From: Stenotrophomonas oahuensis
GTDB taxonomy: Bacteria > Pseudomonadota > Gammaproteobacteria > Xanthomonadales > Xanthomonadaceae
Reading direction: 5' to 3'
DNA: 64,000 nucleotides
NCBI RefSeq assembly: GCF_031834595.1
Contig: NZ_CP115541.1
Coordinates: forward strand, 868,001 to 932,000
Shown: in pieces, positions 1,845-48,790 of the stretch
How the letters are laid out: each line of letters begins with the position of its first letter
Position numbering within the stretch: the stretch's first letter is position 1
Position numbers and translations under genes: made by a program
The notes under the pieces: generated by a model
Database searches by the model: none
Seen by the model: only the letters and a program-made list of their open reading frames with translations
Told to the model about the DNA's origin: nothing

Positions 1845-2705
1845 ATGCAGGACCTTCATATCGTCGACGGCGACAGCGCAGCGGCCTGTCTCAGGCATGC
1901 CATCGTCACTGGCCAGATGTCCGGCGAGGTATTCGCGCTCAACGACTGGCTGTCGGTTGGCCCGCTGGGAAGCGCCGCCGAACGCAACGCCTTTCTGAGT
2001 ACGCTCTACTTGCCGCCACCCTCCGCTGCCGGCGAGTTCGATGATCTCGAGCCAGGCGAAGACGCGTTCGCACGCTGGGTTGCGTTGAAGGCGCGCTTCC
2101 AGATTCCGGGCAGGGCAATCCTGTGGATCAGTGGAAACGCGTCGGATCATGTCCTGTTGCGAATGGCCTGCCACATGCTGAAGGCAACTCGCGCCATGCT
2201 CTGGCAGGTATCGGTTCCCGCATTCGAGGGCTGGTTCGAATCAGTGGCCGCGCATCCGCCTGAGGCGCTGGCGCGCTTCGCGCCATCTGCCCGACCCTTG
2301 AGCTCAGCCACAGCTGCGGCGTTGGCACGGGAATTCATCGCCATCGCCGCCCATCCAGAACCCGTACGCCACCTGGATGGCGACGGCACGCTTCGCTACC
2401 GCCCGATCGACCTGCACGATGCGCTGCTGCTGACCTGCTGTCCCTATCAGTGGACGCCAGCCAACTACGTGGCCGGCAATGCCATGTCACGCTGCGAACG
2501 GCGCAACGGTCTGAGTGACCACTTCTTCGCAGCGCGGTTGCGTGCACTGATCAAGAGCGGGCAGGTTGAGAGCCACATGCCGTTGTCGGATGCGGCGTGG
2601 GACTGGCGAATCAACGTGCGCCGCGTGGGCGGCACGGACCTGCCCAAAGTCAATCAGCGATTGCGGAACCGGTATGCCACCGATTCCGACGACGGACGTG
2701 CATAA
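1845..2705 (+). CDS. DUF1835-family protein
   Basis: A 286-residue soluble protein. The N-terminus (HIVDGDSAAACLRHA, then NDWLSVGPL) carries the hallmark GDSAA and D-x-LSxGP motifs of DUF1835. The C-terminal half has the arginine/aspartate-rich helices of the DUF3658 domain that often accompanies it. Function is unknown; members are cytoplasmic and often described as of possible regulatory role. GGAGG lies 8 bases before the ATG. Its last 52 bases overlap the end of the convergent glutaredoxin-like gene. Confidence 0.75.
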   Translation: MQDLHIVDGDSAAACLRHAIVTGQMSGEVFALNDWLSVGPLGSAAERNAFLSTLYLPPPSAAGEFDDLEPGEDAFARWVALKARFQIPGRAILWISGNASDHVLLRMACHMLKATRAMLWQVSVPAFEGWFESVAAHPPEALARFAPSARPLSSATAAALAREFIAIAAHPEPVRHLDGDGTLRYRPIDLHDALLLTCCPYQWTPANYVAGNAMSRCERRNGLSDHFFAARLRALIKSGQVESHMPLSDAAWDWRINVRRVGGTDLPKVNQRLRNRYATDSDDGRA

Positions 2706-3058
2706 GAGCGCCCGCCCACTTCCACCACGGGCAACTCATACATGCCATTGCGCAGCAACCCGGCGTGTCGGAACCGGCTGTCGAACTGCGCCTCAATCGC
2801 CGGCACATCGATGTCGTAGTAGCGCACCGGAATACCATCGCTCTGCAGGTCGGCCAGCATGCGGCGGGTGAAGCCGCAACCGGTGCGTCCGTAAACATCG
2901 ACGGCGGGGCCGGTCACCTGGTCCGCAGGCGTTGCCGGGATAGGATTGGCCATCAGCGCTTCGGCCTGCTGCGCACGGCTCGGGAAGAAGGTGCGCTTCG
3001 CGTGCAGCACGCCGCCCAGCAGGCTGAGAATCATCAGCAGAACAAACACGCGGTTCAT
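2654..3058 (-). CDS. Membrane-anchored or secreted glutaredoxin-like protein
   Basis: A 134-residue protein with an N-terminal hydrophobic segment (about residues 4-20, signal peptide or anchor) and a thioredoxin-fold domain from about residue 50. The active site is CGFT, where classical glutaredoxins have CPYC or CGFS; the second cysteine is missing, so a monothiol mechanism is expected. ELPVVEVGG gives the conserved cis-proline region. The ATG at 3058 has AGGG six bases upstream; an ATG two codons earlier directly abuts that site and is less likely. It lies 61 bases downstream of the AraC-type gene and overlaps the end of the convergent DUF1835-family gene. Confidence 0.7.
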   Translation of the reverse strand: MNRVFVLLMILSLLGGVLHAKRTFFPSRAQQAEALMANPIPATPADQVTGPAVDVYGRTGCGFTRRMLADLQSDGIPVRYYDIDVPAIEAQFDSRFRHAGLLRNGMYELPVVEVGGRSYARPSSESVAYRFRNR

Positions 3059-3119
3059 GGACATCCCTGTCAGACGGGCGTTGTGCCCGCGCGCACGCTA
3101 CCACGCCGCCTTGCAGCAC

Positions 3120-4004
3120 TCAATCGGGCTGACGCAGTCGCTGCGCGTCGCGAGCCGGCGGCAGCCCAAACAGGCGCGCGTACTCGCGGCTGAACTGCGA
3201 AGGACTGTCATAGCCCACCCGGTGCCCCGCCGTCGCGGCATCCAGGCCCTCGCCCACCATCAGCCGACGCGCTTCCTGCATGCGCAGCTGGCCACGGAAA
3301 TCCAGTGGACTCATGGCGGTGACCGCCTTGAAGTGCGCGTGAAAGCTGGAACGGCTCATGCCCGCCACCTCGGCCAGCATCTCGATGCGGCTGGCATCGC
3401 GATAGTTCGCACGCAACCACAGGATGGCGCGGGCGATCTGTGCCTGGCGGGTATCGGTGCGCGCCATGAGGTGGAACACTTCACCGTGTTCGCTGCTGAT
3501 CAGGCGGTAGAGCAGTTCGCGCAGCGCCAGTGGTGCCAGCGGGGCGATGTCCTGTGGCGTGTCGAGCAGCTTCAACAAGCGGGTCGCTGCCTCAAGCAGC
3601 GGGGAAGTCATTGCACCGAGCGTCAGCCCGGCGCTGTCATCCATCGCCGCGGGCAGCGGGCGTGGATGCTGCAGCGTCAGCTCACCCAGCAGGGCCGGAT
3701 CCAGATCCAGCTGCATGCACAGGTACGGGGCGGCTTCGCTGGCCTCCACCACCGCGCCCATCACCGGCAACCCCACCGTGGCCACCAGGTAACTGGCCGG
3801 ATCGTAGTGAAACACCCGTTCGCCCAAGGCCGCGCGCTTGCGGCCCTGCGCCACGAAGCACACCGTGGGTTCGTAGATCACCGGCATCGGCAGCGTCGGA
3901 CTGGCGCAGCGGATCAGGGTCACGCCCGGCAACGCGGTGGCGAAAGTGCCGTCACCGTGCGCATGGCGGGCAATGGCATCGCGGAAGGTAAGCAGCGCGG
4001 TCAT
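3120..4004 (-). CDS. AraC-family regulator with AraC_N (cupin-type) domain
   Basis: About 294 residues. The first two thirds match the AraC_N/type-I effector domain (VCFVAQGRKRAALGERVF is typical). The last ~100 residues form the double helix-turn-helix of AraC/XylS regulators, with SRSSFHAHFKAVTAMSPLDF in the first and DSPSQFSREYARLFG in the second. It is divergently transcribed from an aldo/keto reductase across a 117-base gap, the usual arrangement for a local activator and its target. The ATG at 4004 is preferred; a TTG twelve codons upstream is possible. The inducer is unknown. Confidence 0.88.
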   Translation of the reverse strand: MTALLTFRDAIARHAHGDGTFATALPGVTLIRCASPTLPMPVIYEPTVCFVAQGRKRAALGERVFHYDPASYLVATVGLPVMGAVVEASEAAPYLCMQLDLDPALLGELTLQHPRPLPAAMDDSAGLTLGAMTSPLLEAATRLLKLLDTPQDIAPLAPLALRELLYRLISSEHGEVFHLMARTDTRQAQIARAILWLRANYRDASRIEMLAEVAGMSRSSFHAHFKAVTAMSPLDFRGQLRMQEARRLMVGEGLDAATAGHRVGYDSPSQFSREYARLFGLPPARDAQRLRQPD

Positions 4005-5210: not shown

Positions 5211-5855
5211 TCAGTTCGACAGGTACTGCTCGGCGTAGAAGCTTTGCAGGAATTCGTCGGCCCGCTGCGCAGACAACCCCTGCTCGCGCGCCTTCGCCAG
5301 CTCCCGCTGATAGTCAGGGGTCTGCCGGTACGCATCGAACTGCTTCTTTTTATAGGCAGCGAACGCCTCGGCATCCAGTGCGAGGTGTTCAGTGACCTTG
5401 CCTGCCTTGACCTTGATCAGCTGGTAGTGGTCGTACATGGAGCCATAGCCCATGTGAACGTACTCGGTCATGCGACCGTCCGGTATCACCAGGGCACCGG
5501 TGTACCACCGCGCGGCCACCGGTGATGATGCATCGGGGAAGATCGTCGACATCACGCTCTTGACCTCCGGTTCAGCGCTGTTTCGCTGATAGATGTCGAT
5601 GGTCACGTCGGCCAGCACCAGTTCGCCGTTCTCGATCCGCCAGTGCGCCACATAGCCGCGCCAGCTGGCCGTGGACTGGCCTTCTGCCGGCGAGCGCGAG
5701 CCGATCTTGTCGAGATGCGAGGCCAAAGGGTTCGTGTTCAGCGACAGCGTCTTGCCGTCGATCTCGATCCGATCCGGGATCTGCGCCGTGGCCGAGGCCA
5801 TCCGAGGCAGGCACACGGCCAACAGGCCAATCAACAGGAAGTTCAGGTAGCGCAT
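5211..5855 (-). CDS. Hypothetical secreted protein
   Basis: A 214-residue protein with a signal peptide (MRYLNFLLIGLLAVCLPRMASA) and no recognised domain. The mature part is mixed alpha/beta with a lysine/glutamine-rich helical C-terminus (YKKKQFDAYRQTPDYQREL). AAAGGAG lies just upstream of ATG 5855 and fixes the start. It begins 17 bases after the LysR-type gene on the same strand, so the two are probably one transcript. It could be a periplasmic accessory, but no function can be assigned. Confidence 0.6.
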   Translation of the reverse strand: MRYLNFLLIGLLAVCLPRMASATAQIPDRIEIDGKTLSLNTNPLASHLDKIGSRSPAEGQSTASWRGYVAHWRIENGELVLADVTIDIYQRNSAEPEVKSVMSTIFPDASSPVAARWYTGALVIPDGRMTEYVHMGYGSMYDHYQLIKVKAGKVTEHLALDAEAFAAYKKKQFDAYRQTPDYQRELAKAREQGLSAQRADEFLQSFYAEQYLSN

Positions 5856-8315: not shown

Positions 8316-9680
8316 TCAGTACGCGAACTGCGAGAACACCGGGTCCACGTTCTGGTTCCACTCGCCGTGGTACAGCGCCAGCTTGCGTTCGGCCGGGGTC
8401 AGGCCGGACTCGACGATTTCCTGCAGGACGTCGAGGAAATGGCTCTCATCCTGGCCGTCGGCATTGCGTGCGGCGCGGCGCTGCAGGCCGGCCACTGCGA
8501 TCTTCACTGCCTCGCGGGCCAGGTCGCGCACGGTGCCGTTGCGGAACGGCAGGTTCATGGCCTGGCGCGGCACGCCGTCGCGTAGCGCATGACGCTCGAG
8601 CAGACTGAAGTCCTTGACCAGATCCCACGCCGCGTCCAATGCAGTCTCGTCGTACAGCAGGCCCACCCAGAACGCCGGCAACGCACACAGGCGGCTCCAC
8701 GGGCCGGCGTCGGCACCGCGCATTTCCAGGTACTTCTTCAGGCGCACTTCCGGGAACGCGGTGGTCATGTGGTCGGACCAGTCGCGCAGCGTCGGCAGCG
8801 CACCCGGCAGCACCGGCAGCTTGCCCTGCATGAAGTCGCGGAAGCTCTGTCCACTGGCATCGTGATAGACGCCATCGCGGTAGGAGAAGTACATCGGCAC
8901 GTCGAGCAGGTAGTCCACATAGCGCTCGTAACCGAAACCGTCTTCGAACACGAAGTCCAGCATGCCGGTGCGGTCGGCGTCGGTGTCGGTCCAGATGTGC
9001 GAACGGTAGCTGAGGTAACCGTTCGGCTTGCCCTCGGTGAACGGCGAATCGGCGAACAGCGCCGTGGCAATCGGCTGCAACGCCAGCGACACGCGGAACT
9101 TCTTCACCATGTCCGCTTCGGTGGCGTAATCCAGGTTGACCTGCACCGTGCAGGTGCGGGTCATCATGTCCAGGCCCAGCTGGCCCACCTTCGGCATGTA
9201 CTCGCGCATGATCCGGTAGCGGCCCTTCGGCATCCACGGCATGTCCGCACGCGACCACTTCGGCTGGAAGCCCATGCCCAGGAAGCCCAACTGCAGTTCC
9301 GCCGCCACCTGTGCCACCTCGTTGAGGTGGGTGCCGGTTTCCACGCAGGTCTGGTGGATGCTTTCCAGTGCCGCGCCAGACAGCTCCAGCTGGCCTGCCG
9401 GTTCCAGCGTCACCGATGCGCCGTCACGGACCAGCGCGATGGTGCGGCCGCCTTCCTGCACGGGCTCCCAGTTGAAGCGGGTCAGCCCGTTGAGCAGCGC
9501 CTCGATGCCGCGGTCGCCGTCGAACGTCGGCGGACGCAGGTCATCCAGGCGGAAGCCGAACTTCTCGTGTTCGGTGCCGATGCGCCAGTGCGCCTTGGGC
9601 TTCTCGCCGGAGGCCAACGTGGCGACCAGTTCATTGCGGTCGGTGATCGGCGTCTCGGCGACGTGGCTGGGGCTCGACAA
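8316..9680 (-). CDS. gshA: Glutamate-cysteine ligase (plant/proteobacterial GCS2 type)
   Basis: About 454 residues. The protein joins glutamate and cysteine with ATP, the first step of glutathione synthesis, in the cytoplasm. [16 protein letters not shown] at the N-terminus and [12 protein letters not shown] are signatures of the class shared by plants and many proteobacteria, distinct from the E. coli GshA class. Length fits the family. Homology begins at about [13 protein letters not shown]; the nearest start is TTG at 9680 ([11 protein letters not shown]), with an ATG at 9800 the alternative, which would add a low-complexity extension. The gene is followed by palindromic elements and a terminator. 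Confidence 0.93.
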
Positions 9681-9858
9681 GGGCAGGCTCGCAGAATTCG
9701 GGGCGGGGGAACGGGATGTGGGGCTGGGGGCCCGGCATCGCAAGGGCGCACTATATCGTGGTGCCCGCGTGCATCGTGTCACCGTGGCGGGTTGCTGCAT
9801 TCCACCGGATGCCCCTTGACGCTGCCCCGGGCCGCGCCGGGCCGCCTACACTGTGGGC

Positions 9859-10695
9859 ATGGCACTCACTCCCACCCTGCCCGACCCCGGCCTGCTGGCC
9901 GAGATTGCCACCCTGGCCGACTGCCAGCGTGCCGAGGGCTATGCCTGCATCACCGCCCGGCGCGAACACGGCGCGTCATCGGTGGAGATTCCACAGCCGC
10001 AGTTCGCCATTCTGCTGCAGGGGCGCAAACAGGTCAGTACCGCGCAGCAGTCAATGACCTTCGTGCCCGGCGATCTGTTCCTGATCACCCAGCGCTGCCG
10101 TATCGATGTGGTCAACATCCCCGACCCGGCCAGCGGCCTTTACCTGAGCGCGATTGTGCCGCTGTGCAGTGAAGCGCTGAGCGCGGCGCGCACGCTCTGG
10201 AACGAACCGCTGCCCGCTGCCGGCCTGCCGCTGGCACAACTGGCGCTGGATGCACATGCCGACACCCTGCGACAGTGGCGTGCGGCACTGGAACGTGGCC
10301 ACTACACCGAAGCACGGCTGGCCTTGGCTACCTTGATCGTGGCGTTCTGCCGCGGTGGCCACGGCAGCCTGCTGCTGGCCCCGGAGCCGAGCCTGGGCGA
10401 ACGCCTGCGTGATCTGATCGCTGCCCAGCCCGAGCGCGACTGGCAGTCGCATGACTTTGAAAGTCACCTCGGCATGAGCGGGGCCACCCTGCGCCGACGC
10501 CTGGCCAGCGAGCAGCTGAGCGTGCGTGAACTCATTGCCGACGCGCGCCTGGCCTATGCCATGCAACTGCTCTACACCACCCGCCTGCCGCTGAAGACGG
10601 TGGCCGCGCGCGTAGGGTATCGCTCGCTGGGCAGTTTCAACCGGCGCTTCGCTGCCCGCTATGGACTGGACCCGGCGGAGATTGGCAACAGCTGA
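9859..10695 (+). CDS. AraC-family regulator with AraC_N domain
   Basis: A 278-residue regulator. The N-terminal effector domain contains FAILLQGRKQV and FVPGDLFLITQ, resembling AraC_N proteins. The C-terminal ~100 residues form the AraC DNA-binding unit (LGMSGATLRRRLASEQLSV and AARVGYRSLGSFNRRFAARY). ATG 9859 is preferred to a GTG two codons earlier. It is followed 99 bases later on the same strand by an exported MBL-fold hydrolase, a plausible but unproven target. It is diverged from gshA across 178 bases. Confidence 0.87.
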   Translation: MALTPTLPDPGLLAEIATLADCQRAEGYACITARREHGASSVEIPQPQFAILLQGRKQVSTAQQSMTFVPGDLFLITQRCRIDVVNIPDPASGLYLSAIVPLCSEALSAARTLWNEPLPAAGLPLAQLALDAHADTLRQWRAALERGHYTEARLALATLIVAFCRGGHGSLLLAPEPSLGERLRDLIAAQPERDWQSHDFESHLGMSGATLRRRLASEQLSVRELIADARLAYAMQLLYTTRLPLKTVAARVGYRSLGSFNRRFAARYGLDPAEIGNS

Positions 10696-10794
10696 GGTCG
10701 GCGAGCAGTTTGCGCGGCATTGTGAGCGCATCACGCGAAAGGATGCCGGCAGCATGGGGCTGTCGCGGCGGTGCCGCATTGCCAGGAGGCTTTC

Positions 10795-11781
10795 ATGGCC
10801 GGTTTTTCAATTCGTGGGTTGGTCTGCTTTGTTGCCGGGCATGGCCCGGCACTACTGTTGGCGGGGGTGGCACAGGCTGCGACAGGCCATGTGGTCGAAC
10901 AGCAGGTGCCAGGTGTTTACCACCAGCAGATCGGCACCTTGCAGGTCACGGCCCTGTTCGATGGCACCGTGGCGCTGGGCCGGCAGGAACTGGTCGGCAT
11001 TGAACCCGGCGCGGTGACCCGCCTGCTCGATCACCGCTACGTGCCCGAAGACGGCAAGGGCCTGCAGACCGCGGTCAATGCCTATCTGGTGCAAAGCGGC
11101 CGGCATCTGACCCTGGTCGATACGGGCACAGCACAGTGCTTCGGTCCCGGCCTGGGCCAGGTGCTGGGCAATCTACGCGCGGCCGGTTATGACCCGGCCG
11201 AGGTCGACGATGTGCTGCTGACCCACGCCCACCCGGACCACCTGTGTGGCCTGCTCGATGCCAATGGCAAAGCGGCCTACCCCAACGCCACGGTGTGGCT
11301 GTCGCAAACCGACGCGGACTATTGGTTGAACCCGGCCAGCGAGGCGACCGCACCGCAAGGGGTGCGCTTCGCCTTCGCCCTGGCCCGCAAAGCCGTCGCG
11401 CCGTATGACGCCGCCGGCAAGGTCAGGCGCTTCAGCGCAGGGCAGGCACTGCCTACCGGTGTGACCGCACTGGACAGCCAGGGCCACACCCCCGGCCATG
11501 TGTCCTGGCAGCTGGACGGCGGCAGCCAGCAGCTGCTGGTGTGGGGCGACATCGTGCACTTCCACGCGGTGCAGTTCGCGCAGCCAACGGCCAGCTATGA
11601 GGCTGATAGCGACAGGACTGCGGCGATTGCCAGCCGCCGCGCGATGATGACGCAGGCGGCCGACCACGGCTGGTGGGTGGCGGGTGCGCACCTGCCCTTC
11701 CCGGGATTGGGTCATGTGCGACACGAAGGCGACGCCTTCGCGTGGGTCCCGGGCGAATTCGCGCCGTTGCCGGCGCGGTGA
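10795..11781 (+). CDS. Exported MBL-fold metallo-hydrolase (methyl parathion hydrolase-like)
   Basis: A 328-residue protein starting with a hydrophobic signal-like segment ending AGVAQAA, then a metallo-beta-lactamase domain. The zinc motif is H144-A-H146-P-D148-H149, with DSQGHTPGHVSW and WGDIVHFH supplying the further metal ligands. The pattern resembles the exported methyl parathion hydrolase branch of the superfamily, which also contains lactonases. GGAGG precedes ATG 10795. The substrate is unknown; a lactone or ester is most likely. SMAG repeats follow the gene. Confidence 0.85.
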   Translation: MAGFSIRGLVCFVAGHGPALLLAGVAQAATGHVVEQQVPGVYHQQIGTLQVTALFDGTVALGRQELVGIEPGAVTRLLDHRYVPEDGKGLQTAVNAYLVQSGRHLTLVDTGTAQCFGPGLGQVLGNLRAAGYDPAEVDDVLLTHAHPDHLCGLLDANGKAAYPNATVWLSQTDADYWLNPASEATAPQGVRFAFALARKAVAPYDAAGKVRRFSAGQALPTGVTALDSQGHTPGHVSWQLDGGSQQLLVWGDIVHFHAVQFAQPTASYEADSDRTAAIASRRAMMTQAADHGWWVAGAHLPFPGLGHVRHEGDAFAWVPGEFAPLPAR

Positions 11782-43848: not shown

Positions 43849-43905
43849 GGTGGGATCGGTCGACAGACGATCGCCGTGAATTGGTCAACGTCCTTTAACG
43901 CATGG
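43849..43905 (+). repeat. Left half of a 147-bp composite palindrome
   Basis: Fifty-seven bases collinear with the left part of the complete elements at 45642-45788 and 46218-46364, from GGTGGGATCGGTCGACAGAC to TAACGCATGG, without gaps. The matching right half is found 750 bases away (44656-44740). Confidence 0.65.
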
Positions 43906-44189
43906 ACCCCCAACCGAAATCGCGTCTCTCCGGGCCCAAATGTCGCCTCCGGCCCGTTCACGCGCCACCGCCACCCACCCAACGATCCGCTTCACAACAC
44001 ACGCCCCAAATCGGAACCACCCATCTTCTGGTGTCATCCACGACACCTCGCTACGCATTCAACTCTTCCGCAAATCGCCACGCGCCAATTACGTCGCACG
44101 ATTTGCGCATCCAGCACACAGCCGCGACGATGCGTAGGAATTATCTGATGTGCACCGCCCCTCATCTGCTGCAGTGTTGTCCCCGGAGC

Positions 44190-44372
44190 GTAGAAACTCC
44201 TAAGAGTTAGCAGTTGATGCCCTGCGTGGGAGATGTCGTGTCCTACGTCGGGAGGGTGGCTAATAAAACACCCCCGTAAGGGGGGAATACGCCCGCCGGC
44301 TTTTGCTGACTCTACGGTTTCTAACCTCCCGACCCCTCGTCGCCCTGACGGGGGTCGCATCTCACAGGAGGC
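44190..44372 (+). promoter_or_regulatory. Candidate structured 5' leader RNA
   Basis: Two groups of pairings exclude each other in a simple nested fold. Segments 44192-44197 and 44203-44210 can pair with 44317-44322 and 44306-44313 (14 pairs, one G-U). Segment 44247-44255 pairs perfectly with 44325-44333. A small CCCCC/GGGGG hairpin (44271-44284) and a GACCCC...GGGGTC hairpin (44331-44356) follow. The latter ends 9 bases before the AGGAGG of the next small gene. The CCTCCC at 44325-44330 could pair with that AGGAGG. Confidence 0.45.
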
Positions 44373-44377
44373 ATGCC

Positions 44378-44545
44378 ATGCAGACACACTGGCCAGACAC
44401 ACCCGCGAACGATGACGTCGCACCTGCGCGACCTGAAGCCACCACTGGTGCCGGCGAATCATCGCCAAATACCTGCGTACGCCACGTTGAAATCCTGCTC
44501 ATGCGCATAGGTTTCTGTAGCGACGCGCCATGCGCGTCGGCATGA
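44378..44545 (+). CDS. Small hypothetical protein with strong ribosome-binding site
   Basis: Fifty-five residues starting MQTHWPDTPANDD, with AGGAGG six bases upstream of the ATG. No domain or signal was recognised; it is acidic/Thr-Ala-rich first, then has two cysteines and a hydrophobic stretch (VEILLMRIGF). The last eight codons and the stop lie in a SMAG-type repeat (44517-44541), so the protein may be truncated from an older, longer form. An overlapping ATG five bases earlier is in a different frame. It is the only candidate target of the structured leader. Confidence 0.4.
   Translation: MQTHWPDTPANDDVAPARPEATTGAGESSPNTCVRHVEILLMRIGFCSDAPCASA
44517..44541 (+). repeat. SMAG-type hairpin (GACGCGC subfamily)
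   Basis: GTAGCGACGCGCCATGCGCG followed by TCGGC, overlapping the end of the 55-residue small gene. Confidence 0.75.
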
Positions 44546-44655
44546 AGCCAGCATCGTTCGCAATGCCCGCGTGTGCGGGGCACCGCGTACGTAAACGAGA
44601 ACAACCATGAACAACAACATCCCCCGGCGCAGTGCCCGGGCAGGTCGCCCGTGCG

Positions 44656-44740
44656 CGTTTAGATCGCGCCTATCCGTCAACGGTCATGCGTTACCGTGCC
44701 GATTACCGTTATCGGCGGTCGTCTGTCGACCGACCCTACC
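44656..44740 (+). repeat. Right half of a 147-bp composite palindrome
   Basis: Bases 44682-44740 (59 nt) align without gaps with the right part of the complete elements, from GGTCATGCGTT to GACCGACCCTACC. Similarity continues more weakly through the centre to about 44656. Confidence 0.65.
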
Positions 44741-44817
44741 GATTTTCAGGCATTTCGTGCGCGTCGTTTACACCGCCCGAGGCGTGCGCTCCCCAACGGT
44801 ACATCGCAGAGATTCCC

Positions 44818-45171
44818 ATGAACACTTCGCCACATCCGCGCGCAAAACGCCACAACCCAAAGACCTCACCCCGTAGCGAACAGCTTCCACCGCTACACCC
44901 CGGCGACATCCTCACCGAAGACTTCATGCGTCCACTGAAGCTCTCCGGTCGCGCCCTCGCCTGCGCCATTGGCGTCTCCCACTCCCGCATCGCCACCATC
45001 GCCTCACGCAAGGCCGCCATCACCGCGGACACCGCGATCCGTCTTGGCCAGTACTTCGACACTTCGCCGTGGTTCTGGATGAACCTGCAGGTCAGGTTTG
45101 ATCTTGAAACCGCGCAGGTACCGGCAGGCCGCATCGTGCCGCACAGCTGCGAGGAGGTGCGCACATGGTGA
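44818..45171 (+). CDS. higA: HigA-family antitoxin (XRE helix-turn-helix)
   Basis: A 117-residue protein with an ~30-residue basic/proline-rich N-terminus, then a domain typical of HigA: LHPGDILTEDFMRPLKLSG, IGVSHSRIATIASRKAAITAD (HTH) and TAIRLGQYFDTSPWFWMNLQ. HigA normally binds and neutralises the HigB mRNA interferase encoded upstream; no HigB-like gene is adjacent. It overlaps by seven bases the next gene, which encodes an unrelated 130-residue protein. Upstream sequence holds the right-half composite repeat. No clear ribosome-binding site is seen before ATG 44818. Confidence 0.85.
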   Translation: MNTSPHPRAKRHNPKTSPRSEQLPPLHPGDILTEDFMRPLKLSGRALACAIGVSHSRIATIASRKAAITADTAIRLGQYFDTSPWFWMNLQVRFDLETAQVPAGRIVPHSCEEVRTW

Positions 45172-45557
45172 TCAAGCGCTTTCGTCATATTCTTCCCGGC
45201 TACACGCGCCCCGCAACCACGCGGCCACGCCCGCCGCTTCCCCCGGTGCCGCGCAGCCTACGCTCCGCGCTGAAGAACCACCCAGATCACATCGAGCGCC
45301 TGCAGATGGCCCTGCATGGAGTGAGCGTGGCACCCACCACGCGCCTGCCGCGCATCGAAATGGCGGTATGGGCGATTGAGGATCGCCTGTCGCGATTTCT
45401 GGCCGAAGCCAAACAGGAGTTGGATTCCGCCCGCTGCAGCGGCGATGCCGAGCGTTTCGCACGCGCGGAGGAGGTCGAAGCATTGATGACACACCTGTGT
45501 CGCAAGAACACATGGATGGGCGACGAAGTCTTCGCCGCCTGGTTCCGCAGCCTGTAG
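45165..45557 (+). CDS. Hypothetical protein coupled to HigA
   Basis: A 130-residue protein with a basic, proline-rich N-terminus (residues 1-40) and a helical C-terminal region (~45-125: HPDHIERLQMALHG, MAVWAIEDRLSRFLAEAKQELD, ARAEEVEALMTHL). No toxin domain was recognised, including the RelE/HigB fold. The start ATGGTGA overlaps the HigA stop by seven bases, so translation is very likely coupled. The TAG stop comes from a SMAG-type repeat. It could be a HigA partner or a passenger; function unknown. Confidence 0.6.
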   Translation: MVIKRFRHILPGYTRPATTRPRPPLPPVPRSLRSALKNHPDHIERLQMALHGVSVAPTTRLPRIEMAVWAIEDRLSRFLAEAKQELDSARCSGDAERFARAEEVEALMTHLCRKNTWMGDEVFAAWFRSL

Positions 45558-45577
45558 AGACGCGCCATGCGCGTCTG
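45554..45577 (+). repeat. SMAG-type hairpin
   Basis: GTAGAGACGCGCCATGCGCG followed by TCTG. Contains the stop codon of the 130-residue protein gene. Confidence 0.8.
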
Positions 45578-45878
45578 GCGGCACCATGCCCATTGACGAC
45601 CGGATCGCACTCAACTGACCGCCTCCAACGCGCCATGCTCCGGTAGGGTCGGTCGATAGACGACCGCCGATAACGGTGATCCGCGCGGTAACGCATGACC
45701 TTGAACGTAGAAGCGCGCCTGCGTTCGATGGTCATGCGTTTTAGCAGCGATGACTGGTAGCAGCGGTCGTCTATCGACCGACCCTACCGCACCTTCCGCA
45801 TGGATCACGTGTCATTAACGCGCCCTGGGCGCAGCATCGGCGTGCGGGGGCGCGCGCAATAGTAAGCGGGGACTTGAT
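45558..45878. other. 321-base gap without a gene
   Basis: The gap between the HigA-coupled gene and the 109-residue protein gene holds a SMAG-type hairpin at its start and the first complete composite palindrome. Nothing else was recognised. Confidence 0.65.
45642..45788. repeat. 147-bp composite palindrome, copy A
   Basis: Outer arms are perfect 26-bp inverted repeats (GGTAGGGTCGGTCGATAGAC... at 45642-45667 and its complement at 45763-45788), each itself a small GTAG hairpin. Nested inside is a second inverted pair, AACGCATGACC/GGTCATGCGTT (45690-45700, 45730-45740). It is about 80% identical to copy B at the same length. Confidence 0.8.
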
Positions 45879-46208
45879 ATGCCAACCACTTTCGAAGGAC
45901 TGGACATCCAGCCGGCTTACCAACCGTCAGAGGACACAACCGTCGGCGAGCTGCAAGATCGCGAGATCAGCCGAAGGTTTTCACAGATGCTTGTAGAGCA
46001 GCTCATAGAAAGGTGGCAGACGGGTGATTGCATTGCACTGAAGGTTGAAACGACTCGCCGCATCATTCGCGTTACAGGTGCCGTTCGATCCCAAGCCCTG
46101 TATGACCAGATCCACGAGGTCATCAATCCCATCAATCAAGCCCAGGCGGGAGCTGTCGACAGTTCGGGAGTCAAGATCGATTCCGCACTGGCGCCCCGAG
46201 CGCGCTGA
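45879..46208 (+). CDS. Hypothetical protein between two composite palindromes
   Basis: A 109-residue soluble protein, acidic in the first 40 residues, with a mixed alpha/beta middle (QLIERWQTGDCIALKVETTRRIIRVTG). No family, signal or membrane segment was recognised. GGGGA lies upstream of ATG 45879. It is flanked on both sides by complete 147-bp elements (copies A and B), 90 and 9 bases away. The start is uncertain, and homologues, if any, should be sought. Confidence 0.5.
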   Translation: MPTTFEGLDIQPAYQPSEDTTVGELQDREISRRFSQMLVEQLIERWQTGDCIALKVETTRRIIRVTGAVRSQALYDQIHEVINPINQAQAGAVDSSGVKIDSALAPRAR

Positions 46209-46217
46209 ACGCGTAAT

Positions 46218-46364
46218 GGTAGCGTCGGTCGACAGACGACGGCCGACATCAATCGTGCGCACGGTAACGCATGACCTCCAACGTAGAAGCGCCTCTGCGT
46301 TCGATGGTCATGCGTTATGGCAGTGATGATTGTTGTCGGCGGTCGTCTGTCGACCGACCCTACC
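46218..46364. repeat. 147-bp composite palindrome, copy B
   Basis: Same length as copy A with no gap needed. The outer arms have two mismatches (46218-46243 against 46339-46364). The inner pair AACGCATGACC/GGTCATGCGTT is conserved exactly. Base changes in the arms are often paired, keeping the hairpins. Confidence 0.8.
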
Positions 46365-46419
46365 CGACCTCACAGTACAAGTGGTGCGGGAATTCCGCGC
46401 GCCTCCAATCGGCGTGCGA

Positions 46420-46812
46420 TTACCCCTTCAACCGCACCAGCAGATCCCGCAACGGGGTAAATCGGATCGCCATTCCAGCAATCACCCCAAGCGTATTAGC
46501 CACCGCGTCCGCCGGATCCGCACTGCGATTATCCGTCAACGCCCCCTGCGCAAACTCAACTCCAATTCCCATCAACACCAACCCGACCGCAGCCAACCAC
46601 AACGCCGCACGCGTGCGATAGATCTGCACAGCAGACCCTGCCAGCAGGAAGTACGCCAGGAAATGCTCCACCTTGTCGCTGTTCTTCGGCAGGTCCGGCA
46701 GCGGCGGCGGTGGAATCAGGCAGACCACGATCACGCTGATCACCGCCAGCCACCACACCCCCAGCCAGAACCGCGGCCGCCGCAGCGGCTTCAACATCCC
46801 TGTCATGGTCAT
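46420..46812 (-). CDS. VanZ-family membrane protein
   Basis: A 130-residue protein with three or four membrane helices and VanZ-like pattern: DKVEHFLAYFLLAG in the middle and GALTDNRSADPADAVANTLGVIAG near residues 90-115. VanZ-family proteins are widespread, and most have no known function, though the founder confers low-level teicoplanin resistance. One base separates its start from the stop of the MidA-type gene upstream, indicating co-transcription. A second in-frame ATG lies two codons in. Confidence 0.8.
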   Translation of the reverse strand: MTMTGMLKPLRRPRFWLGVWWLAVISVIVVCLIPPPPLPDLPKNSDKVEHFLAYFLLAGSAVQIYRTRAALWLAAVGLVLMGIGVEFAQGALTDNRSADPADAVANTLGVIAGMAIRFTPLRDLLVRLKG

Positions 46813-46813
46813 C

Positions 46814-47998
46814 TCACAGTCGCCAGGTCAGATCGCCGAGCAGGAACGAGGCATCCATGCTCACGTCACGCTGGAAACCCATCACCTGGAAGCGCTCGCC
46901 CATCTCGGTGGGCAGAGTCAGCTTTTTCACCTGATCGCGCAGACGCAGCTTGCCGACCTCATCGGTACGCTCTTCAGCCAGCGCCAGCAGCCGGTCAAGC
47001 CCGTTGCCGAGCAGGAAGCTGGACTGGGTGCAGTAACCGGCCAGCTCGAACCCTGCACCGGTGCCGGCCTCGGCCAAGGCGGTGAAATCCACCGAGGCGG
47101 TGATGTCCTGCAGGCCCGGCCACTTGTAGACGTCGTTGTGCACATGGTGGCGATAGAACGCACGCACCGTGCCGTCGTCGCGCTCGGGCTGGTAATACTC
47201 GTGGCGCGGGTAGCCGTAATCGACAAACAGCATGGCCCCGCGCTTCAGACCACCCGCCACCGCCTGGATCCAGTACGGCAGCTGCGGCAGCAATTCGGAA
47301 CGGTAGCCATCGGCAAACGGCTGGCCGAGGTAACGCTCGACATGGCGCACGGCGGCGCTGAGCAGCGCATCGGCCGGCTGCGCGCCACGCATGAAGGCCC
47401 CTTCGGCATCCAGTTCCACGGTTTCCTCGTGGACCATGCCATCCTTGGCCAGGAAGCGCGGCGTGGGCAGGGCGTCAATCACTTCATTGGCGAACACCAT
47501 GCCGTCCCAGTCGTCATCGAACGGACGGTCCAGCCATTCCACCAGTGCGAACACCGGCGGAATCAGCGCCTTCTCCAGCCGCTCGCGCTGGCGTTCACGC
47601 AGGTCGGCGCTGGGCTCCAGAATGGCGTAGCGCTCGGGCAGCGCATCCAGCTCCAGCAGGCGCTTGAGCATGATCTCGGCAAATGCACCGCTGCCGCCGC
47701 CCAGTTCCAGGAAGCGCGCCTGCGGGCCCAGCTGCTGCATCACCGGGGCCACAGCATTGGCCAGCGTGGCGGTGAACAGAGGGCCCATTTCCGGGGCGGT
47801 GGTGAAGTCGCCGGCCGGGCCGAACTTGCTGGCACCGGCGCTGTAATAGCCCCAGCCCGGCGCGTACAGACTCAGTTCCATGAAGCGCGAAAACGGCATC
47901 ACCCCGCCATTGGCAAGGATTTCAGCGCGCAGCGCTTCGCTGAGCTGGTCGCTGTGGGCCAGTGCGTCGGAGTCGGGAAGAGGCAGGGAAGAATGCAT
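46814..47998 (-). CDS. SAM-dependent methyltransferase, MidA/NDUFAF7 family
   Basis: A 394-residue protein of the DUF185 family. It shows MPFSRFMELSLYAPGWGYYS and GDFTTAPEMGPLF near the N-terminus, the SAM-binding FLELGGGSGAFAEIML at ~95-108, and FANEVIDALPTPRF. The mitochondrial homologue methylates an arginine of a complex I subunit, and the bacterial role is likely similar but unproven. It is divergent to the pteridine reductase gene with a 54-base gap. ATG 47998 begins the homology; the frame is open further upstream. Confidence 0.9.
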   Translation of the reverse strand: MHSSLPLPDSDALAHSDQLSEALRAEILANGGVMPFSRFMELSLYAPGWGYYSAGASKFGPAGDFTTAPEMGPLFTATLANAVAPVMQQLGPQARFLELGGGSGAFAEIMLKRLLELDALPERYAILEPSADLRERQRERLEKALIPPVFALVEWLDRPFDDDWDGMVFANEVIDALPTPRFLAKDGMVHEETVELDAEGAFMRGAQPADALLSAAVRHVERYLGQPFADGYRSELLPQLPYWIQAVAGGLKRGAMLFVDYGYPRHEYYQPERDDGTVRAFYRHHVHNDVYKWPGLQDITASVDFTALAEAGTGAGFELAGYCTQSSFLLGNGLDRLLALAEERTDEVGKLRLRDQVKKLTLPTEMGERFQVMGFQRDVSMDASFLLGDLTWRL

Positions 47999-48052
47999 GG
48001 CGCGGTCGATTGCGGTGACAATGCACAGCATAGCCGAGCAGGGAGACCCCCG

Positions 48053-48790
48053 ATGACCGAAAGCGCACCCGTGGTGCTGATCACCGGCAGCGCGCGCCGG
48101 ATTGGCGCGGCCATTGCCCGCCAGTTCCATGCCTGCGGCTGGTCGGTGGTGCTGCATGCCAATACCTCAACCGCCGAACTGCAGCAGGCCGCGTTCGACC
48201 TGGACATGGTGCGGCCGGGCAGCGTGCTGGCGCTGCAGGCCGACCTGCGCGACACCGCCGCCCTGCCCGACCTGGTGGAACAGGCGGTGGGCCAGTTCGG
48301 GCGGCTGGACGCGCTGGTGAACAATGCCTCCAACTTCTACCCCACCCTGCTGGGCCAGATCACCGCCGAGCACTGGGACGACCTGTTCGCAGTGAACGCC
48401 CGCGCGCCGCTGCTGCTGGCCCAGGCGGCCGCGCCGCACCTGCGCCGCCAGCAGGGCTGCATCGTCAACCTGACCGACCTGCACGGCACCGACCCGATGC
48501 GCGACCACGCGGTGTACAGCGCGGCCAAGGCGGCGCTGGAGATGATCACCCGCTCATTGGCGCTGGAGCTGGCCCCCAAGGTGCGGGTGAACGCGGTGGC
48601 CCCGGGCGCGATTCTGTGGCCGGAACAGGGCAAGGATGATTTCGCTCGCCAGGCACTGTTGGCGCGCACGCCGTTGGGGCGGATCGGCACGGTGGAGGAG
48701 ATCGCCGAGGCGGTGTACTGGCTGGCCAGTGATGCGCCGTTTGTGACCGGGCATACGTTGCGGGTGGATGGGGGGCGGCAGCTGTCGTAA
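48053..48790 (+). CDS. Short-chain dehydrogenase, probable pteridine reductase
   Basis: A 245-residue SDR. The cofactor site is ITGSARRIGAAIARQ, the NNASNF motif is present, and the active-site YSAAKAALE carries Tyr and Lys. The end VRVDGGRQLS and central LHGTDPMRD are typical of pteridine reductase/FolM-like enzymes, which reduce pterins or dihydrofolate with NADPH. The neighbouring folK gene supports folate-related function. The arginine in the G-x-x-x-G-x-G region (ARRIG) indicates NADPH preference. GGGAG precedes ATG 48053. Confidence 0.88.
   Translation: MTESAPVVLITGSARRIGAAIARQFHACGWSVVLHANTSTAELQQAAFDLDMVRPGSVLALQADLRDTAALPDLVEQAVGQFGRLDALVNNASNFYPTLLGQITAEHWDDLFAVNARAPLLLAQAAAPHLRRQQGCIVNLTDLHGTDPMRDHAVYSAAKAALEMITRSLALELAPKVRVNAVAPGAILWPEQGKDDFARQALLARTPLGRIGTVEEIAEAVYWLASDAPFVTGHTLRVDGGRQLS

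Follow-up and report, generated by a model that had tools for sequence, protein, structure and literature searches.

A 64,000-nucleotide stretch of the Stenotrophomonas oahuensis genome (contig NZ_CP115541.1, positions 868,001 to 932,000; hereafter, the window) contains, at positions 43849–46364, short genes interspersed with copies of a 147-bp palindrome, an arrangement that a first-pass annotation, made from the letters alone, had described as a possible cassette-like array. Our results suggest, with a probability of roughly 0.7, that the palindrome is an element of the REPIN or terminal inverted repeat (TIR) type, a known kind of repeat related to the repetitive extragenic palindromic (REP) sequences. 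Although the interval resembles an array of gene cassettes, it most likely represents something else; the best reading is a known kind of repeat located on a hotspot of gene turnover, where repeat-mediated exchange of cassettes is possible. Published systems are cited below by their PubMed Central accessions.

Structure and copies of the 147-bp element

Copy A (45642–45788, + strand) was recognized by its dyad, by a search of the own genome and by its folding relative to shuffled sequences. The orthologue of copy B (46218–46364, + strand) is the single complete copy at the corresponding locus of a sister species (L044 in genome G077), which aligns unbroken with window positions 46217–48788 at 87.5% identity, copy B included. 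Both copies are 147 bp long, with arms of 60 and 59 nt separated by 29 nt and an arm complementarity of 82% (A) and 81% (B), and each consists of two inverted REPs able to form a hairpin, with a folding energy of about -59 kcal/mol (z of -11.1 and -11.5 against shuffles, respectively). The borders of one repeat family postulated by the first-pass annotation are present, inasmuch as a left and a right piece in the same interval are related to these two complete copies.

In this genome, the family occupies at least 43 places, complete and partial, a lower bound obtained by merging by hand the own-genome search (78 rows over both strands, 40 of 154 candidates scored) with matches in fetched regions, whereby partial copies were counted and some solo arms were left out. 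Near-complete copies in the window and 20 fetched regions number 31 (135–149 bp), as defined by a filter for near-complete elements, with 2 of the 31 added by hand. The copies are clustered, with 11 adjacent pairs lying less than 1.5 kb apart, compared with 0.59 expected under uniform placement (maximum of 4 in 5000 simulations), a model that takes no account of a preference for gaps. Short tandem runs (ATTGGGAT-like) abut an element copy at L029:2220–2272, and other short runs lie beside a copy in L185. Phage sequences yielded no match to copy A.

The two arms of each copy, 59 bp long, are inverted relative to each other, and both contain a REP hairpin tagged with GTAG, as judged by covariation inside the arm, which was assessed by five measures. 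Across 30 aligned copies, 98.8% of the 420 hairpin cells are paired, and 41 cells are changed on both sides; the corresponding values are 9.6 (standard deviation 2.5) for shuffles and 0 to 2 for partners shifted against each other. The tag-proximal pair of the left arm is G-C in 16, C-G in 9 and A-T in 5 of the 30 copies, without a single broken pair; that of the right arm is G-C in 16, C-G in 7 and A-T in 6, with 1 broken.

These features are akin to those of REPINs, REP doublets that form hairpins, with commonest spacings of 71 and 110 bp in strain SBW25 and hundreds of copies (PMC3116915). Common to both are two tagged hairpins in inverted orientation, with a spacer that pairs, and the presence of a gene for a REP-associated tyrosine transposase (RAYT) next to a copy, here in sister species; the present element differs in its arms of ~59 bp, its unit of 147 bp, its tens of copies and the lack of evidence for excision. 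By description rather than by sequence, it can also be likened to the self-complementary TIR repeats of the tyrosine transposase (TIRYT) gene, ORF 1152, of S. maltophilia K279a (PMC3733652). The family described here was found in at least 16 of 91 Stenotrophomonas genomes, with the best matches in G000 (this genome), G030 and G077; up to 9 candidates per genome were scored, so that the counts of this search are floors. SMAG repeats (PMC2613905) share with the element the GTAG tag, the occurrence as pairs in gaps and the genus; however, the element consensus differs from the quoted SMAG consensus GTAGTGCCGGCCGCTGGCCGGCA, and SMAG-type monomers, recognized by sequence as the direct repeat D4, are separate entities in the interval (44517–44541 and 45554–45576, both on the + strand).

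A transposase gene beside the element in two sister species

RAYT genes, sought by PF01797, were matched in 88 of the 91 genomes. Among the best 30 genus loci and the two loci of this genome, element variants lie beside the gene in G030 and G077 only, which are the nearest relatives of this genome by their VanZ protein. The protein encoded at these loci belongs to NF047646 (REP-associated tyrosine transposase, NCBIfam; 144.3 bits, cut-off 80). At the orthologous site next to an aminopeptidase gene, S. oahuensis has kept an element variant and a stretch matching RAYT residues 135–156 at 77%, and the rest of the gene is gone. From this gene tail, we infer that the RAYT gene, intact in the two sister species, has been deleted here, and hence that this transposase has probably ceased to move the copies in this genome. 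The two RAYT genes that the genome does possess were considered as mobilizers and rejected, as neither locus has the element (the neighbouring repeats were read by eye). Because only 16 of the 91 genomes hold the element, its absence from other RAYT loci says little. REPs have been described to decay after RAYT loss (PMC3686654), a model that fits this genome. Presumably, a RAYT recognizing GTAG-tagged hairpins in single-stranded DNA spread the element in the past. In the present interval, the copies occupy the gaps of an accessory module.

Several observations weigh against the view that the palindrome is a RAYT-spread element that lies passively among changing genes. The scan for the element at RAYT loci was limited to the 30 best and two own loci; the hairpin structure was picked after the alignment had been viewed; and the shuffles do not preserve the relatedness of the copies. 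Pairs changed on both sides number 5, compared with 3.7 in shuffles, a weak excess reached in 7 of 500, and further pair types show no excess (10 versus 10.0), while the long stem joining the two arms covaries at only 2 of 22 predicted pairs. None of the five junctions read (loci 76k, 1024k, 2016k, 4250k and 4458k) displays a clean 147-bp gain at an intact empty site, and as the differences at all five take in flanking bases that do not belong to the element, mobility as a 147-bp unit is no more than possible. Finally, clustering far above uniform and segment changes that end at or next to element edges (2016k and 158k, described below) are not predicted by a purely passive role.

Recurrence of the element with one accessory module

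The genes of the interval recur beside the same element elsewhere in the genome, in line with the array described in the first-pass annotation. They belong to a module whose fullest order is a left arm, an sRNA-Xcc1 leader, a symE-like gene, an antitoxin-like gene, sometimes a 147-bp copy, higA, a gene for a 130-residue protein and, sometimes, a 147-bp copy. Eight of the places examined in this genome carry the module in more or less complete form; the left arm is found at five of the eight (the window and four more loci), and at 582k, 1310k and 3154k the module is reduced to the leader and the antitoxin-like gene. At 4458k, the left arm is interrupted by a 419-residue frame (L173:3077–4514, in module orientation), which we take to be IS256-like. 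The 3154k locus contains three tRNA matches (L177:3457–4659), and L178 and L179 have one apiece close to their orthologues of 76k; L026:4525–4942 is 100% identical to L041:1–418. In plasmid sequences, a single record was matched, from Xanthomonas, over 60 bases of the leader.

Turnover of genes and elements between species

A search with VanZ, encoded next to the window site, returned 23 loci, of which 18 were measured, two are occupied and three (L054, L056 and L066) lie outside the measurements. The gap between the GH20 and VanZ genes is 49–398 bp in 17 of the measured loci and 1385 bp in one. In two of the 18 (L046 and L051), the space between the same flanking genes is free of genes and contains a single intact relative of the element (~70% identical), a configuration that the first-pass annotation had proposed to look for. 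The occupied site of G077 (L044) contains the left arm, the leader, the antitoxin-like gene and the orthologue of copy B; that of G030 (L045) contains the leader, the right piece, higA and the 130-residue gene, without the left arm, copy A, the 109-residue frame that precedes copy B in the window, and copy B itself. Genes between the borders are therefore gained and lost among sister species. A locus of this Stenotrophomonas type (L062) comes from a record titled Bacillus subtilis (JAHREJ010000014.1), which is probably mislabelled or a mixed assembly.

At other loci, compared like the window site through one genome per species, elements and module genes vary independently of each other. At 76k, the symE-like and antitoxin-like genes of G030 are 97% and 92% alike to those of this genome, yet no 147-bp copy lies between the antitoxin-like gene and higA. 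At 1024k, G030 has an arm and a 147-bp copy, and this genome has neither, in module DNA that is 94% identical; the site is empty in G077. At 4458k, the internal copy is missing in G077 and most module genes are missing in G030. Module genes are also seen without repeats in related genomes, which is in part the pattern that the first-pass annotation had named as speaking against an array. In G030, the 1880k locus (L196:555–1680) has an extra part-copy and a 155-residue gene between two stretches that align to ~116 bp of a neighbouring gene end.

At two loci, the genes of which were predicted with a simple codon caller, changes coincide with element borders. At 2016k, this genome contains, in positions 2014–3836 of the locus, a 147-bp copy, a GNAT gene, a second copy, a 96-residue gene and a third copy, a block replaced as a whole by 14 bp in G077. 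In G030, the 96-residue gene and both outer copies are conserved, but the GNAT gene gives way to four different predicted genes and an additional copy; on the left side, homology between G030 and this genome stops 3 bp beyond the first copy. The 158k locus of G030 contains one gene and one copy more than that of this genome, and the interior of a 147-bp copy (L030:2046–2190 versus L194) appears, by eye, to be inverted between the two genomes. That the elements are borders of exchangeable cassettes, with genes that come, go or are replaced through homologous recombination between copies or travel as composites handled by a RAYT, is a possible, if doubtful, explanation. Comparisons between species cannot date the events, and the differences include flanks outside the element. 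Moreover, at 4250k all three species have the same gene between the borders, and at 158k G077 and G027 hold more genes with one copy and no copy, respectively, which makes loss as likely as gain.

Alternative genes between conserved flanks are found at 2016k and at the window site, and in this respect, as in the presence of repeats beside variable genes, the loci resemble the minimal mobile elements and NIME/Correia repeats of Neisseria (PMC3898611); unlike there, the comparison here is between species, and the repeats are of the RAYT type rather than Correia or dRS3. We found no report of REP-bordered gene exchange in Stenotrophomonas in the literature searched, which mostly did not reach subscription papers. 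The more specific proposition that, in this Stenotrophomonas clade, long palindromes of the RAYT type delimit units made up of genes and elements, with copies at one and the same locus enclosing different genes in sister species, appears unlikely.

A turnover test bears on the same question. Flank-to-flank distances were measured by hand at ten chosen loci in G030 and G077, with a change defined as more than 300 bp and the rows of G074 and G027 left out of the count. Thirteen of the 20 comparisons across intervals with the element or the module were determinable, and 10 of the 13 had changed; the unchanged ones were 3154k in G030 (~+289), 4250k in G077 (-72) and 1880k in G030 (~+289 net, with a loss and a gain inside). 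In twelve control intervals of the window without this element family, 18 of 24 comparisons were determinable and 7 had changed, including interval 9595–10875 in G030, where the right flank is lost and the change was judged from the next flank. A predicted 214-residue gene occupies window positions 5211–5855, and the interval around it is ~680 bp shorter in both G030 and G077; the gene was probably gained here or lost in both. The difference between 10/13 and 7/18 has a one-sided p of 0.04, and without 1024k, 582k and 1310k, which have no 147-bp copy in this genome, 7 of 10 comparisons remain changed (p ~0.12, by hand). Since the test loci are on average longer than the controls and were selected for clusters or modules, the excess is suggestive only. 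The gain and loss of genes between borders is evident among sister species, but intervals without this repeat family often change as well.

The change in the controls, together with ordinary REP dimers present in the same GH20-VanZ gap in several relatives, would be expected if the elements were ordinary REP-type repeats scattered in gaps and the gene differences were at background level. Nevertheless, the copies cluster, they recur with one module, and changes coincide with borders at two loci, so that this explanation is very unlikely. Under the preferred reading, that of a REPIN/TIR-type element on a turnover hotspot, ordinary processes (deletion, insertion and copy-to-copy recombination) would account for the changes at the borders.

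The two incomplete borders

The left and right pieces had been interpreted in the first-pass annotation as one 147-bp element split by an insertion of ~750 bp, a proposal consistent with lengths that add up (57 + 31 + 59) and with the two relatives in which this site holds a single intact relative of the element and is devoid of genes. The left piece (43849–43907, + strand) belongs to an arm subfamily of its own (GGTGGGATCGG...) and forms the left end of the sRNA-Xcc1/symE/higA module. Its identity to 11 other left arms of modules, taken from three genomes, is 78–92% (above 80% in 8 of the 11), compared with at most 80% (median 71%) to the 62 arms of the 31 intact copies. Conversely, the right piece (44665–44740, - strand; 76 nt, including 17 nt of loop; 87% identical to copy A inverted) reaches 95% to arms of intact copies and 73–76% to left arms. 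The halves, coming from different subfamilies, are not one split element, and the proposal, rejected on this ground, has become extremely improbable. It is further contradicted by the loop, as the right piece extends 17 bases beyond the 59-nt arm in the window (its G030 orthologue matches over 60 nt only), and by the left arms at other module copies, the internal 147-bp element of which is complete or absent.

By sequence comparison, the left piece is best described as a solo arm at the module end and the right piece as a truncated ordinary copy. Homology of the window to other modules sets in at the outermost base of the left arm or at most 27 bp outside it, and the right piece is explained by paralogous modules (76k and 4458k) in which an intact copy separates the antitoxin-like gene from higA. 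The symE-like and antitoxin-like genes of the window probably disappeared along with the left portion of the internal element, so that its truncated right piece remains, the direction of each loss being inferred. Upstream of the left arm, another interspersed repeat (palindrome GGCGGGTCGGGG...CCCCGACCCGCC, then GGTGGCCATGGGAAA) is present at 3 of the 6 left-arm loci compared (L044, L174 and L177), with partial similarity at a fourth.

Genes of the interval

The leader (44160–44400, + strand) is repeated in the genome, with 26 matches to positions 44100–44400, many of them partial, and includes sRNA-Xcc1 (RF02221; 44247–44341, + strand; 56.2 bits, gathering score 53). A cassette combining symE and sRNA-Xcc1 is the most widespread in Xanthomonas integrons (PMC12444791), and sRNA-Xcc1 likewise precedes the symE-like gene in the present module, here followed, unlike in that cassette, by the antitoxin-like gene, higA and the 130-residue gene; a degenerate integron array has, however, next to no chance of being the explanation, with no integrase above the TIGR02249 cut-off in any of three genomes and no attC cores (RYYYAAC/GTTRRRY) in copies A and B, the two copies scanned.

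The 55-residue reading frame behind the leader (44378–44545, + strand, inside a 44303–44545 frame) has no Pfam or NCBIfam match and is likely a remnant of a symE-like gene running into a SMAG-type repeat; several paralogous loci have symE-like and antitoxin-like genes at its position. The symE label derives from relatives scored against PF08845 (cut-off 29), namely 35.4 and 17.9 bits for two that follow leader matches and 27.1 bits for one located elsewhere, and the antitoxin-like label from one relative that matches RelB below the threshold (21.8 bits, cut-off 22.4); neither the 116-residue symE-like nor the 102-residue antitoxin-like form of the module matches Pfam or NCBIfam.

The higA-type antitoxin gene (44818–45171, + strand; TIGR02607, 94.4 bits, cut-off 47.7) is overlapped by the 130-residue gene (45165–45557, + strand), the product of which has no Pfam or NCBIfam family and is modelled as all-helical (mean pLDDT 81.7), with no PDB match at E 0.001 or better. 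Its family comprises 13 proteins in a large search, with matches in 19 of the 91 genus genomes. In the loci returned from other species, the gene occurs singly or in runs of two to four, and neither a higA relative nor the 147-bp element was detected within 1.5-kb flanks; tandem runs of three or four genes are found in other Stenotrophomonas at L146, L149, L152, L155 and L167. The 109-residue frame (45879–46208, + strand) may not be a gene: a homolog search returned nothing but itself, and a simple codon caller favours the opposite strand. Of the two small genes proposed in the first-pass annotation, both frames exist, and their status as genes is in doubt.

Implications

Collectively, the results extend the known repeats of this kind by a RAYT-linked family of long-armed palindromes in which each arm shows internal covariation. 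The contrast between sister species, in which a RAYT gene is kept beside the same repeats that stand next to a deleted one in S. oahuensis, makes the model of REP decay after RAYT loss testable. The 2016k and 158k loci are candidates for gene exchange between REP-type borders, and if such exchange is real, a REP-like family, and perhaps its transposase, would drive the exchange of single-gene cassettes, including toxin-antitoxin-like modules.

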